The position numbers were made by a program, and so were the translations under genes. A stretch of DNA of 26,017 nt, taken from positions 1 to 26,017 of IMG/VR virus record IMGVR_UViG_3300031507_000025; one strand, 5' to 3'. Under the pieces are notes generated by a model that was not told where the DNA came from, made no database searches, and saw nothing but the letters and a program-made list of their open reading frames with translations. Origin of the DNA: a virus. This document shows, piece by piece, positions 801 to 6,409 of the stretch. Within the stretch, counting starts at the first letter, position 1. The number at the start of each line of letters is the position of its first letter.

Positions 801-2153
801 ATGGACCAGGCCCGCGCGCTCCCCGCCGAGCCCCGCCGCAGCAGCGGCGGGGCCGGTGGTGCTGCCCGGGCCGACCTCCCGCCCTGGCACGGCCAGAGGG
901 TCAAGATCCCCGCGAGGCTGTGGACGTCGGGCCACTACTCGCACGGCGCCGTCCGCTACTGGGGACAGCTCGCCGCGCTCGACCGGCCCGCCGAGGGATG
1001 CCGCGCCGGCGTCGCCACCCTCGCCCGGTACCTCGGCGACAGCACCAGGACGACCGAGCGCTACCTCGCCGAGCTCGCCGAGCCCGGCCCCGACGGCGTG
1101 CCCGAGATGACGACCGTCCGCCACACCCACCCGGGCGGTACCGGCACGACCGCCGAGCGCCGCATGCGGCCCGTCGCGCGCATCGAGCACTTCGCGTACG
1201 TACCCGTCACCGCGATCAAGGCCCTGCGTCCGACGCTGGTCCTCGCCTACTGCGTCCTGGCCTGGGCCGTCGCCGTCGGCGCCCCGCACACGGCCGCCGA
1301 GCTCGGCGCGGCACTCGGTGTCACCGTGCGGACCGCGCGCCGCCTCGTCGACGAGCTGGAGGCCCTCGGCTGGGCCGTCGTCGAGCGCCGCGCGGGACAC
1401 CAGGGACGCCACCTCGTCACCGTCCACGACCACCCGCTCCACCTCGTCCCCGCACTGGTCACAGATGGCGGATCGGGTGCGGACACAGATGGCGGATCCC
1501 TCGCGTCTAAGGAAGACCCTGGACTGACTGACGAGAGAACCACGCAGGTCGGTGGGGCTTTCCGCCGTAGGCGAGCTGACCGTAAGTGGGCCGGGGAGCC
1601 TGTGGAAAACCCGGTCGCTCCGGTCGCTGCGACGTTCCGGCCCGCGCCCTCTGCGCGCCCCCTGGAGCGCCCCGCGTACGCCGGACCCCAGCTGACCCTC
1701 AGCCGCGATGCCTGGGCGCTCGTGAAGCCCGTCCTAACCCCTGTGAGTGATCTCCTGCCGCGCTGCTCGCCGTACATGACCCGGCGCATCGTCCGCGAGA
1801 TCCTCCGCCAGATCCGCGAGGACGGGATCTGGCCCGACGAGATCCGCGACCAGGTCGCCCGCCTGCGCCGCTGGACCCCCGACGAGGAGATCACCGACCC
1901 CGGCCGCTGGCTCCTCGGCGCCGTCCTGCCCGTCCGCTCCCGCTGCGGCATGACCGGCTGCCACTGGGGATTCCTCGCCCACACCGGCATGCCCTGCAAG
2001 ACCTGCACCGAACTCGACCACGCCCGGGCCGCCGGCATCACCGCCGACCACCCACCCCATACGAGCACCTGGCACGAGTGCGCCGACTGCCGACAACCCA
2101 GCCGCATCCCCCTCACCGCAGGCCTCTGCCACACCTGCAGACCCACCGCCTGA
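801..2153 (+). CDS. Replication initiator-like protein: two HTH segments plus Cys-rich C-terminus
   Basis: This encodes 450 residues from ATG 801, preceded by AGGA at 5-nt spacing. Residues about 33-95 (PARLWTSGHYSHGAVRYWGQL, then GVATLARYLGDSTRTTERYL) look like a winged helix. Residues about 160-215 carry a second helix-turn-helix (AAELGAALGVTVRTARRLVDEL with a wing). Residues about 220-295 form a Gly/Pro/Arg-rich linker. The C-terminal half has a helical domain and a series of Cys pairs (RCGMTGCHW, PCKTCTEL, HECADC, LCHTC) that probably bind zinc. Two DNA-binding domains, a long linker and repeats within the linker DNA recall lambdoid O-type initiators. Initiation of phage DNA replication is therefore the best guess, but no specific Rep family was confirmed. 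A transcription factor is the alternative. Confidence 0.7.
   Translation: MDQARALPAEPRRSSGGAGGAARADLPPWHGQRVKIPARLWTSGHYSHGAVRYWGQLAALDRPAEGCRAGVATLARYLGDSTRTTERYLAELAEPGPDGVPEMTTVRHTHPGGTGTTAERRMRPVARIEHFAYVPVTAIKALRPTLVLAYCVLAWAVAVGAPHTAAELGAALGVTVRTARRLVDELEALGWAVVERRAGHQGRHLVTVHDHPLHLVPALVTDGGSGADTDGGSLASKEDPGLTDERTTQVGGAFRRRRADRKWAGEPVENPVAPVAATFRPAPSARPLERPAYAGPQLTLSRDAWALVKPVLTPVSDLLPRCSPYMTRRIVREILRQIREDGIWPDEIRDQVARLRRWTPDEEITDPGRWLLGAVLPVRSRCGMTGCHWGFLAHTGMPCKTCTELDHARAAGITADHPPHTSTWHECADCRQPSRIPLTAGLCHTCRPTA
1460..1498 (+). repeat. Two 15-bp direct repeats (iteron-like) inside the initiator gene
   Basis: CACAGATGGCGGATC occurs exactly twice, at 1460-1474 and 1484-1498, with a 24-bp period. 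In protein the repeats read TDGGSGADTDGGS in the linker. The following 110 bp are less GC-rich than the surroundings and contain the DnaA-box-like TGTGGAAAA at 1601-1609. The placement parallels lambdoid phages, whose origin iterons lie inside the initiator gene. Two copies is few for iterons, so this could also be a coding duplication. Confidence 0.5.
1601..1609 (-). promoter_or_regulatory. Possible DnaA box
   Basis: TGTGGAAAA on the + strand reads TTTTCCACA on the other strand, one base from the Streptomyces DnaA-box consensus TTGTCCACA. It lies about 100 bp after the paired direct repeats in the linker of the initiator gene. A single nine-base match is weak alone; its position is what makes it worth recording. 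Confidence 0.35.
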
Positions 2154-2948: not shown

Positions 2949-3616
2949 GCAACGCCGAACTCCTCGCCGAGGCGATCGCCGCCGTGGCCGTCCTCATCCG
3001 CGCCTACCTCGGCTGGTACCTCGCCCTCGTCGCCGCCCTCACCGTCCTCCTCCTCGCCCTCGTCGGCGCCCTCAACACCCTCTACGACCACTACCGCCGC
3101 CCCGGCAAGGACCCAGCGATGACCGTCACCGAGCACACCGGCCCCTACGGCACCGCGCACCGCGTCCCCGAGACGAACTACGAGGCCGTCAGCCCCGCAG
3201 CCCTCGACAGCTGGATCATCACCGCGCCCTGCTGGCACCCCCACTGGACGCAGTACGCCCTCGCCCTCGTCTCCCTCGCCCACATCCCCGACGTCCCCCA
3301 GGCCCAGCTCCACCGGCCCGGCATGACCCACGAAATCAACGTCGTCGCCCTCGACCCCGAGCACGGCCCCTACGACGCCCACACCCTCAGCCCCGGCCGC
3401 CTCCGCTACCTCCTGCCCGTCAACATCGCCGAGCAGGTCGCCACCACCGACGAGACAGCCCGCGACCTCACCCAGCAGTGCGCCCACGCCGTCGTCCACG
3501 GAGCCCTCTGCCCCGAGACCGCCGACGCCCCCGACCGCATCCGCACCTACTGGCGCCAGACCATCCGCGACATCCTCGGCCACACCAACGACCCCCACCA
3601 CGGACACCTCACCTAG
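2945..3616 (+). CDS. Membrane-anchored hypothetical with soluble C-terminal domain
   Basis: This encodes 223 residues from ATG 2945, coupled to the upstream stop by ATGA. The first 50 residues are very hydrophobic (AYLGWYLALVAALTVLLLALVGAL) and form one or two membrane helices. Residues about 59-223 form a soluble domain with RVPETNYEAVSPA, APCWHPHWTQY and ALDPEHGPY segments, resembling proteins I recall from Streptomyces phages as unnamed hypotheticals. An in-frame ATG at 3119 has AAGGA 7 nt upstream and would make the soluble domain alone. That may be the true start, or the locus may make both forms. The strand composition is extremely C-rich here. Confidence 0.65.
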   Translation: MSNAELLAEAIAAVAVLIRAYLGWYLALVAALTVLLLALVGALNTLYDHYRRPGKDPAMTVTEHTGPYGTAHRVPETNYEAVSPAALDSWIITAPCWHPHWTQYALALVSLAHIPDVPQAQLHRPGMTHEINVVALDPEHGPYDAHTLSPGRLRYLLPVNIAEQVATTDETARDLTQQCAHAVVHGALCPETADAPDRIRTYWRQTIRDILGHTNDPHHGHLT

Positions 3617-3624
3617 CCACTCCA

Positions 3625-3662
3625 CGCGCACGCGCCTGCGATAACGCAGGCGCGCGTGCGCG
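3625..3662 (+). terminator. Strong GC hairpin, probable terminator or attenuator
   Basis: The arms CGCGCACGCGCCTGCG (3625-3640) and CGCAGGCGCGCGTGCGCG (3645-3662) pair fully apart from a 2-nt bulge, around the tetraloop ATAA. It starts 8 bp after the stop at 3616. There is no T-run, which is normal for actinobacterial terminators. A more AT-rich stretch follows before the next gene, so it probably separates two transcription units. Confidence 0.6.
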
Positions 3663-4870: not shown

Positions 4871-4975
4871 CCCCTTATGCGAACACGCGTTCCCATCGGA
4901 CACTCGCTGAACAGTGCACCGACTTGCTCGCCACCCCCAGTGGCGCACGCGACCCGCACCGAGAAGAGGCCCACC

Positions 4976-5692
4976 ATGCCCACCTGGACCCTGCACCGAG
5001 GAGACGCCCTCACTCTCCTGCGCACCCTGCCCACCGGCGCGGTCAGCGCGACGATCACCGACCCGCCCTACAACTCCGGCGGCATGACCACCGCCCAGCG
5101 CACCGGCAGCACCGCCCGCGGCAAGTACGTCAGCGGCGACGCCCAGCACCAACTGCCCGACTTCGACGGCGACACCCGCGACCAGCGCAGCTACACCCTC
5201 TGGCTCACCCTGATCCTCACCGAGTGCTACCGCATCACCCGGCACGCCGGACCGCTCCTCGTCTTCACCGACTTCCGCCAGCTGCCCGCCACCTCCGACG
5301 CCCTTCAGGCGGCCGGATGGACCTGGCGAGGCATCGTCCCCTGGCACAAACCGATCTCCCGCCCATGCAAAGGCGGCTTCAACCGCGCCTGCGAATACGT
5401 CCTGTGGGCCACCAAAGGCCCCGTCGACGCCGCACGCAATCCCGTCTACCTCCCCGGCCTGTACTCGGCCAGCCAGCCCCGCGGCAAAGGCCGCGTCCAC
5501 ATCACTCAGAAACCCGACAACCTCATGGCCGAACTGATCAAGATCTGCGCACCCGAGGGCACCGTCCTGGACCCCTTCACCGGCTCCGGCTCCACCGGCG
5601 TCGCCGCCCTCACCTCCGGCCGCGACTTCATCGGCATCGAGCAGTCCGAACGAATAGCGGACACCGCACACACGAGACTCGCCGCCGCATAA
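4976..5692 (+). CDS. Solitary DNA methyltransferase (DPPY, beta-class motif order)
   Basis: This encodes 238 residues from ATG 4976, with GAGAAGAGG upstream. It transfers a methyl group from S-adenosylmethionine to an amino base in DNA. The catalytic motif IV is TDPPYN near residue 27, and the AdoMet-binding motif I is DPFTGSGST near residue 200. That order, with the target-recognition segment between, is the beta-class arrangement; DPPY favours N6-adenine over N4-cytosine. The N-terminal RGDALTLLRTLP is the usual lead-in. No restriction endonuclease lies alongside, so a role in protecting phage DNA from host restriction or in marking DNA is more likely than a restriction-modification pair. 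It is followed by a large hairpin. Confidence 0.93.
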   Translation: MPTWTLHRGDALTLLRTLPTGAVSATITDPPYNSGGMTTAQRTGSTARGKYVSGDAQHQLPDFDGDTRDQRSYTLWLTLILTECYRITRHAGPLLVFTDFRQLPATSDALQAAGWTWRGIVPWHKPISRPCKGGFNRACEYVLWATKGPVDAARNPVYLPGLYSASQPRGKGRVHITQKPDNLMAELIKICAPEGTVLDPFTGSGSTGVAALTSGRDFIGIEQSERIADTAHTRLAAA

Positions 5693-5747
5693 CCACATCC
5701 CACGCCTATGCCACACTGAGGCCCTGCGCGTTATCGGCGCTTCACAA

Positions 5748-5799
5748 GGAACAGCACGCGGCCCGCCTCACCCCCTGTTGAGGCGGGTCGGCGTGTTCC
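5748..5799 (+). terminator. Large hairpin terminator after the methyltransferase gene
   Basis: The inner stem CCCGCCTCA (5762-5770) pairs perfectly with TGAGGCGGG (5779-5787) around an 8-nt loop. The outer ends GGAACA (5748-5753) and TGTTCC (5794-5799) also pair, with an imperfect GC segment between. It lies 55 bp downstream of the stop codon, suitable for terminating the early operon. Confidence 0.7.
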
Positions 5800-5842
5800 T
5801 GCTGGACAAAGATCGTCGCTTAGCGTCACACTCCTGACAGCA

Positions 5843-5854
5843 GCACACGTGTGC
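5843..5854. promoter_or_regulatory. Perfect 12-bp palindrome, possible operator
   Basis: GCACACGTGTGC is fully self-complementary and sits in an otherwise uncommitted stretch about 150 bp before the MerR-like gene. Dimeric regulators often bind such sites. No second copy was noticed in the window, so the role is unproven. Confidence 0.35.
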
Positions 5855-5946
5855 CCACCTGGAATTTACGGACGCGGGAAACCGCCGAGCGCAGCAACAG
5901 CCGGGCTCGCGCCCCGGCAACCGCGGGCCGAAACCACCCGCCCGCA

Positions 5947-5981
5947 CCGCAGCCCCGGACCACCCAGGCCCGGGGCTGCGG
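5947..5981. repeat. Perfect 12-bp inverted repeat upstream of the MerR-like gene
   Basis: CCGCAGCCCCGG (5947-5958) and CCGGGGCTGCGG (5970-5981) are exact reverse complements separated by 11 nt. The repeat ends about 10 bp before the GGGGGAGG ribosome site of the next gene. In RNA this would be a strong stem just upstream of translation initiation; in DNA it could be a dimer-binding site. Confidence 0.55.
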
Positions 5982-6003
5982 CACACCCCGGGGGAGGCGA
6001 GCC

Positions 6004-6240
6004 GTGCTCTACACCACCGCCCAGGCAGCCGACCACGCCACCAAATGGCGCCAGTTCGGCACCGGCACCCCCGCCACCGTCACCCCCGCCGCCATCCGCA
6101 AATGGGCCTCCCGAGGCCACCTCGACCCCGCAGGCCTCGACGACCAGGGCCACCCCCTCTACGCCCTCACCGACATCGCACGCGCCGAGAAAGCCACCCG
6201 CGACCGTGCCCTGCGCCTCGTCGGCACCGGCGCCACATGA
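6004..6240 (+). CDS. MerR-like helix-turn-helix DNA-binding protein
   Basis: This encodes 78 residues from GTG 6004, with GGGGGAGG about 6 nt upstream. It is a minimal DNA-binding domain: TPAAIRKWASRGHL (about residues 31-44) is the helix-turn-helix, and the next segment (DPAGLDDQGHPLYALTDI) is the MerR-type wing. A short basic helix finishes the protein. There is no effector domain, so it resembles the small MerR/excisionase-like proteins found before phage packaging genes. Control of late genes or of DNA recombination are the two natural roles, and the sequence does not decide between them. A longer in-frame reading from GTG 5851 is possible but has poor coding character. Confidence 0.8.
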   Translation: MLYTTAQAADHATKWRQFGTGTPATVTPAAIRKWASRGHLDPAGLDDQGHPLYALTDIARAEKATRDRALRLVGTGAT

Positions 6241-6241
6241 C

Positions 6242-6321
6242 TCCCGCTGCCCGGTGGGGCGACCGGAGCTCCCGCAGGCGCCCCGACGCGCGCGGTACGA
6301 GCCCGGCACCGGGCAGCGGGA
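6242..6321. repeat. 15-bp perfect inverted repeat with 50-bp spacer
   Basis: TCCCGCTGCCCGGTG (6242-6256) and CACCGGGCAGCGGGA (6307-6321) are exact reverse complements. The spacer can form a further 5-bp stem (GGGCG 6257-6261 with CGCCC 6279-6283) and contains the palindrome GGAGCTCC (6265-6272). It begins right after the MerR-like gene stop and is followed by about 90 bp without a gene. It may be a branched RNA hairpin, a terminator, or a DNA site for recombination or packaging. Confidence 0.65.
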
Positions 6322-6409
6322 CAGACGTCACGGAACGGCCACACCCCCACCACACCGCACGTACGCCACGGCATGATGCCCCTCCAGCCGATCGTCCTTG
6401 GGGGGACAC

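Follow-up and report, generated by a model that had tools for sequence, protein, structure and literature searches.

The putative initiator gene and its product

The window analysed here is the whole 26,017-nt stretch of IMG/VR record IMGVR_UViG_3300031507_000025, and its open reading frame 801-2153 encodes a protein predicted to consist of a tandem winged-helix N-terminal half, a disordered linker and a helical, zinc-binding C-terminal domain (Table 1). Two Pfam families score above their cut-offs, HTH_36 at residues 54-94 and HTH_11 at residues 162-198. In the AlphaFold model, residues 30-215 align with RepE54 (9yzl_C; VIA-align Z 9.6, 178 residues, rmsd 4.8); single-domain winged-helix matches reach a similar Z, and the RepE54 match counts by spanning both domains. 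The first-pass annotation had placed the repeat-bearing DNA in a linker between two such parts, and the model agrees: the residues encoded by the element described below, 220-276, are predicted to be disordered (pLDDT <50) and lie between the winged-helix part (~30-215) and the zinc-binding part (~300-410). In the C-terminal domain C382, C387, C399, C402 and W370 are invariant. A fold search with this domain returned no confident known fold (best Z 4.7, to unrelated folds), and the lambda P protein in its complex with DnaB, at rank 5 with Z 4.1, was too weak a match to use.

Profile matches within the family point to replication initiation. The PHROG profile phrog_270 (‘replication initiation protein’) is matched by 41 of 70 relatives (best 9.1e-11), while the window protein itself reaches only 0.003 over residues 165-220. 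Further relatives match ‘replication initiation O-like’ PHROG profiles, and BFVD matches carry the names replication initiator or protein O. Pfam Rep_3 was not matched by the window protein at E 0.1 and is absent among the 25 Pfam families listed for 70 members (E 0.01), and a PDB sequence search gave no match to the family. Family members are usually annotated as ‘hypothetical protein’; two of them, H28 (NZ_CP074103.1) and H40 (NZ_CP066832.1), are annotated as ‘SMC-Scp complex subunit ScpB’, a name that was probably assigned in error on account of the winged-helix fold.

The small flanking genes 143-553, 540-794 and 2176-2523 have relatives in ~20-28 ORFs of related loci, and 2176-2523 matches phrog_5984, of unknown function. 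Further along, in the gap past a gene ending near 3616, lies a GC-rich inverted repeat (3625-3660; 16-nt arms, 4-nt loop, 88% complementary) without a T run.

Table 1. Features of the putative initiator gene and of the conserved element within it (window coordinates).
Feature	Position	Strand	Basis
Putative replication initiator gene, 450 aa	801-2153	+	Pfam and PHROG profiles, AlphaFold model
Predicted tandem winged-helix DNA-binding half, residues 30-215	888-1445	+	Fold like F-plasmid RepE54
Conserved cis element in linker-coding DNA, putative replication origin	1457-1650	+	Synonymous-codon observed/expected 1.4-2.1
Iteron copy 1, core GATGGCGGATC at 1464-1474	1457-1474	+	Co-varies with copy 2
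Iteron copy 2, core at 1488-1498	1481-1498	+	24 bp downstream of copy 1
Conserved block CCTCGCGTCTAAGGAAGA, where the less GC-rich DNA begins, possibly unwound there	1499-1516	+	Codon identity, pattern matches
Conserved block GGACTGACTGAC	1521-1532	+	Codon conservation, alignment
Palindrome CGCCGTAGGCG(A)	1563-1574	+	83/87 relatives, two reading frames
Conserved block GACCGTAAGTGG, mainly in the phage clade	1578-1589	+	Conservation among relatives
DnaA-box-like site TGTGGAAAA	1601-1609	+	Pattern; counterpart in relatives
C-terminal domain, helices and four-cysteine putative zinc site	1692-2030	+	Invariant residues, model pLDDT 90

Repeats and conserved blocks in the linker-coding DNA

The sequence CACAGATGGCGGATC occurs at 1460-1474 and again at 1484-1498, identical at 15 of 15 positions with a spacing of 24 nt, just as the first-pass annotation had described it. 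The match can be extended to 1457-1474 and 1481-1498 with 17 of 18 positions identical, and the pair is the only exact repeat of at least 15 nt within 60 nt in the whole 26 kb. Shuffling the codon order of the gene never produced a repeat of 15 nt (0/300), and protein-preserving shuffles of synonymous codons did so in 6 of 300 cases, because the peptide TDGGS itself recurs. The repeat in the window is therefore modest evidence when taken alone, and the weight must come from homologues.

The less GC-rich stretch and the DnaA-box-like site that had been reported past the repeats are both present. Stretches of 50 nt from ~1482 drop to 58% G+C against 71% for the window, a modest dip that puts them among the bottom 2.7% for the window, and the DnaA-box-like site is the sole match on both strands of the 26 kb to TGTGGA(A/C/T)(A/T)(A/C). 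The conserved element (~1457-1650) is longer and richer than previously noted, with four extra blocks between the repeats and this site (1499-1516, 1521-1532, 1563-1574 and 1578-1589 in Table 1), among them an 11-bp palindrome at 1563-1573 absent from the earlier list. A second copy of the palindrome on the minus strand at 587-597, within the upstream gene 540-794, is probably due to chance.

Nucleotide-level conservation among relatives

Searches at the protein level retrieved a single annotated phage (Kromp gp50), 71 plasmid records (69 Streptomyces, 2 Embleya), six IMG/VR phages and 76 genome loci. A DNA pattern derived from the linker added further phages, all of which encode the initiator family at the match. 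Our codon alignment comprises 87 distinct relatives including the window, drawn from Streptomyces prophages, linear plasmids and genomes and mostly 36-66% identical.

The first-pass annotation had asked whether the linker DNA is conserved beyond protein constraint. Among pairs <60% identical, synonymous-codon identity is ~1.0-1.3 times expectation over most of the gene, with isolated windows up to 1.45, and rises to 1.4-2.1 times expectation over most of ~1461-1650, the peak starting at the first iteron. Codon identity across the repeats and the following block is 0.7-0.94 against 0.37-0.6 expected; it reaches 95-100% at columns L234, A235, K237 and E238 of block 1499-1516, and columns A235, K237, E238, L242, T243 and D244 are essentially fixed at the codon level.

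By the first-pass annotation, close homologues lacking the repeats would have refuted the origin. The outcome favours it: relatives with as little as ~40% protein identity still have both repeats at 24-bp spacing and the DnaA-box-like site. The 24-bp spacing is exact in 67 of the 87 relatives, and in the remaining 20 a divergent repeat pair mostly occupies the same position; for example, L030, which does not have the GGATC pair, carries GCTGAAGGCGGGGC twice where the iterons would be. The order of elements in relatives is iteron 1, iteron 2, CTCGCGTnTAAGGAAGA, ACTGACnGAC, palindrome, GACCGTAAGTGG and DnaA-box-like site. The last of these, with the pattern TGTGGA(A/T/C)A(A/C), was found in 44 of the 67 relatives that have the GGATC pair, mostly 131 nt past iteron 1; by pattern this makes 44 of all 87, plus some of the rest. 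In Kromp and several other phages the site reads TGTGGACAA, a perfect Streptomyces DnaA box and the complement of TTGTCCACA.

The palindrome is retained in 83 of 87 relatives (one C/T variant allowed), mostly at a distance from iteron 1 of 92 nt in one group of relatives and of 93 nt in a second. It codes for RRRR in 33 relatives and for (P/S)A(V/A)G in 50. Since it is kept despite these differing peptides, selection acts here on the nucleotides, an outcome that protein constraint could not produce, and this conservation across frames is the strongest single fact for DNA-level selection. A DNA element preserved in two reading frames is also an exceptionally clear example of selection on a cis element within coding sequence. 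Each of 16 related phage records holds the palindrome exactly once, and all 28 IMG/VR stretches that have the palindrome plus a DnaA box have them within this initiator gene family.

Co-variation of the iterons with the N-terminal half

Iteron copies from the same locus are more alike (12.89 of 17 positions) than copies from different loci (10.45 ± 0.21; 0/5000 shuffles), the pattern that recognition by a single protein would produce. Distances between iterons follow those between N-terminal halves when the C-terminal half is controlled for (partial r 0.42; 0/2000 permutations) and do not follow those between C-terminal halves when the N-terminal half is controlled for (partial r -0.03), in tests that, like the shuffles, ignore the relatedness and shared ancestry of the loci. 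Linkage may add to this correlation, since the iterons lie close to the N-terminal code on the DNA. Binding of the repeats by the 801-2153 protein, as the first-pass annotation had proposed, is thus supported by co-variation and by the RepE-like fold of the model, and we infer it on these grounds.

One locus, L006, carries an apparent recombinant initiator (4923-6347), whose C-terminal half is nearly that of the window and whose N-terminal half and iterons (GGTGACGGATC) group with L007. This half-and-half make-up would therefore put the exchange point at or after the putative origin element.

Neighbouring genes and gene-less copies

A gene of the DciA family, a family of bacterial helicase loaders, lies directly downstream of the initiator in SAP1, L106 and others; under a strict distance rule, at least 8 of the 87 loci have a DciA-like gene immediately after it. 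Other plasmids have ParAB or primase genes near the initiator. Neither a DnaB-type helicase nor DciA (PF05258) was found in the 16 related phage records, some of which may be incomplete. Phages without these genes would therefore rely on the host helicase machinery, in the manner of a lambda-type replicon; lambda replication itself depends on the host helicase.

The element is also present without the gene. On the Streptomyces linear plasmid pFRL1 (L136), positions 3351-3450, ~3.4 kb from the left end, contain the two iterons together with the AAGGAAGAC block and the palindrome, and no initiator domains are encoded there. Three further plasmids have a gene-less element 3.8-5.5 kb from an end, and additional matches near plasmid ends occur among those listed. 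Three of the plasmid records with gene-less copies lack a full-length member of the initiator family, and pFRL1 has a distant C-terminal relative of the initiator, followed by DciA. The two gene-less copies examined closely have flanking toxin-antitoxin-like genes in common, so the gene-less copies may descend from one event. By position, the gene-less elements lie at ~4000 in L137 and L139 and at ~5000 in L138, and those of pFRL1 and L137 come directly after a RelE-like toxin gene.

According to Zhang, Peng and Qin (2010), pFRL1 reportedly has two internal origins, one of them beside a telomere. Tentatively, the iteron pair, the palindrome and an optional DnaA box might form a portable origin cassette common to Streptomyces phages and linear plasmids, an idea that we regard as possible rather than probable. 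We are similarly doubtful whether such a cassette would sit in the initiator linker in whichever frame fits and travel with the N-terminal half on recombination. It is likewise speculative that the gene-less copies ~3-6 kb from telomeres would be fired or titrated in trans by an initiator elsewhere.

A putative replication origin and its alternatives

Comparative sequence evidence makes it very probable that 801-2153 encodes the protein that initiates replication in a Streptomyces phage and that 1457 to ~1650 is its origin. The first-pass annotation had suggested an origin inside the linker of the initiator gene, and nucleotide-level conservation, spacing, frame independence and the co-variation of iterons with the N-terminal half all argue for it. 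The steps from binding of the protein and of DnaA, through opening of the duplex and recruitment of the helicase, to firing are inferred as follows. The tandem winged-helix half would bind both 24-bp-spaced iterons and host DnaA would bind the box at 1601-1609, and with both in place the less GC-rich stretch that separates the iterons from the palindrome would melt. Next, the zinc-binding domain at the C terminus would recruit the host replicative helicase by way of DciA, which phages would obtain from the host and which some plasmids encode in an adjacent gene, and theta replication would begin.

Several observations count against an origin. There are two iterons, fewer than in most iteron origins (four in lambda); the dip to 58% G+C is modest; and the DnaA-box-like site is absent by pattern from a third or more of relatives. 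A GC-skew minimum had been suggested as a further check, and there is no cumulative minimum at ~1500 in the window, which lends the origin no support. The skew turns ~16 kb away from the element on SAP1 and ~2 kb away from it on the NBC_01508 plasmid; these results are equivocal, and the turning points may only reflect gene direction.

Could the repeats merely mirror a repeated peptide (DGGSG..DGGSL) under protein constraint? The GSG and GS residues are strongly conserved, and synonymous shuffling does occasionally reproduce a 15-nt repeat, but the excess codon identity across the repeats and the next block, together with retention of the DNA in gene-less copies, makes this extremely improbable, and for the palindrome, held in two reading frames, it is refuted. 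Synonymous conservation alone cannot tell DNA from RNA, and structure in the initiator mRNA could in principle be what is conserved. We consider this very unlikely, as the region folds no better than shuffled sequence (z -0.53), has no Rfam match and recurs in standalone copies that fall outside annotated genes.

Among DNA-level alternatives, the protein could use the element as an operator, to control its own gene or a partner promoter, with replication beginning elsewhere. Winged-helix proteins often autoregulate, and iteron-like operators are known in F and P1. However, the element lies ~660 nt inside the gene, a sigma-70 scan of 400-2400 found no promoter, and the DnaA-box-like site, the palindrome and the adjoining replication genes suit an origin better, so that an operator is unlikely. 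A partition, transfer or incompatibility site using the same protein would accommodate the standalone telomere-proximal copies on plasmids without a full-length family initiator, and with several such plasmids some other role for the element is possible. We judge a site of this kind to be very improbable: phages have the element too, some of the plasmids encode their own ParAB, and fold and profile matches indicate replication initiation.

Relation to known replicons

In phage lambda, initiator-binding repeats lie inside the O gene at ori-lambda (PMC5043065; PMC3985674), and the window iterons are alike in sitting within the initiator gene. Lambda has four 19-bp repeats, each itself inverted, whereas in the window the repeats are two, direct and 24 bp apart, and are accompanied by a palindrome and a DnaA-box-like site; the helicase-loader gene P comes next in lambda, while DciA comes next in some plasmids with our initiator and in none of the 16 phage records. 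The RepA of mycobacteriophages Miko, Rachaly and Jeeves is an HTH initiator whose origin has been suggested to lie inside repA or immediately before it (PMC7157519); by that description no repeats were identified near repA, in contrast to the iteron pair of the window.

Iteron plasmids (F, R6K, pSC101), with RepE/Rep_3 initiators, share the tandem winged-helix initiator fold with the window. Of the iterons, DnaA box and A+T-rich stretch of their origins, the window has candidates in its two iterons, its DnaA-box-like site and a stretch that drops only to 58% G+C. Their origins lie beside the coding sequence and not inside it, and unlike RepE/Rep_3 initiators, the window protein has an extra C-terminal cysteine-rich domain and no Pfam Rep_3 match. 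By analogy, then, the putative origin is lambda-like in position and iteron-plasmid-like in its parts.

Among Streptomyces linear plasmids, pSLA2 and pSCL1 (rep1/rep2) are reported by Chang, Kim and Cohen (1996) to replicate from a central origin of phage-like type whose iterons lie inside rep1, a layout that resembles the one in the window, and pFRL1 has a standalone copy of the element itself. The first-pass annotation knew of no described origin of this layout in Streptomyces siphophages. Lambda, the similar position suggested for mycobacteriophage RepA and, reportedly, the pSLA2-type plasmids qualify that statement: the layout itself has precedent. What seems novel to us is the composite element, along with its gene-less copies near telomeres. 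The element gives a large, mostly unannotated family in Streptomyces prophages and ~70 plasmid records an exactly placed origin candidate that lends itself to recoding, would tie phage to linear-plasmid replication in Streptomyces and would aid the building of small vectors.

In many large linear plasmids, including pFRL5, pSCL3 and others (H19-H21, H23, H38, H41), the initiator with its internal element lies ~14 kb from one end and is not central. A GntR/WhiB/DUF2637 neighbourhood is common to pFRL5, pSCL3 and pSITFR-21a.
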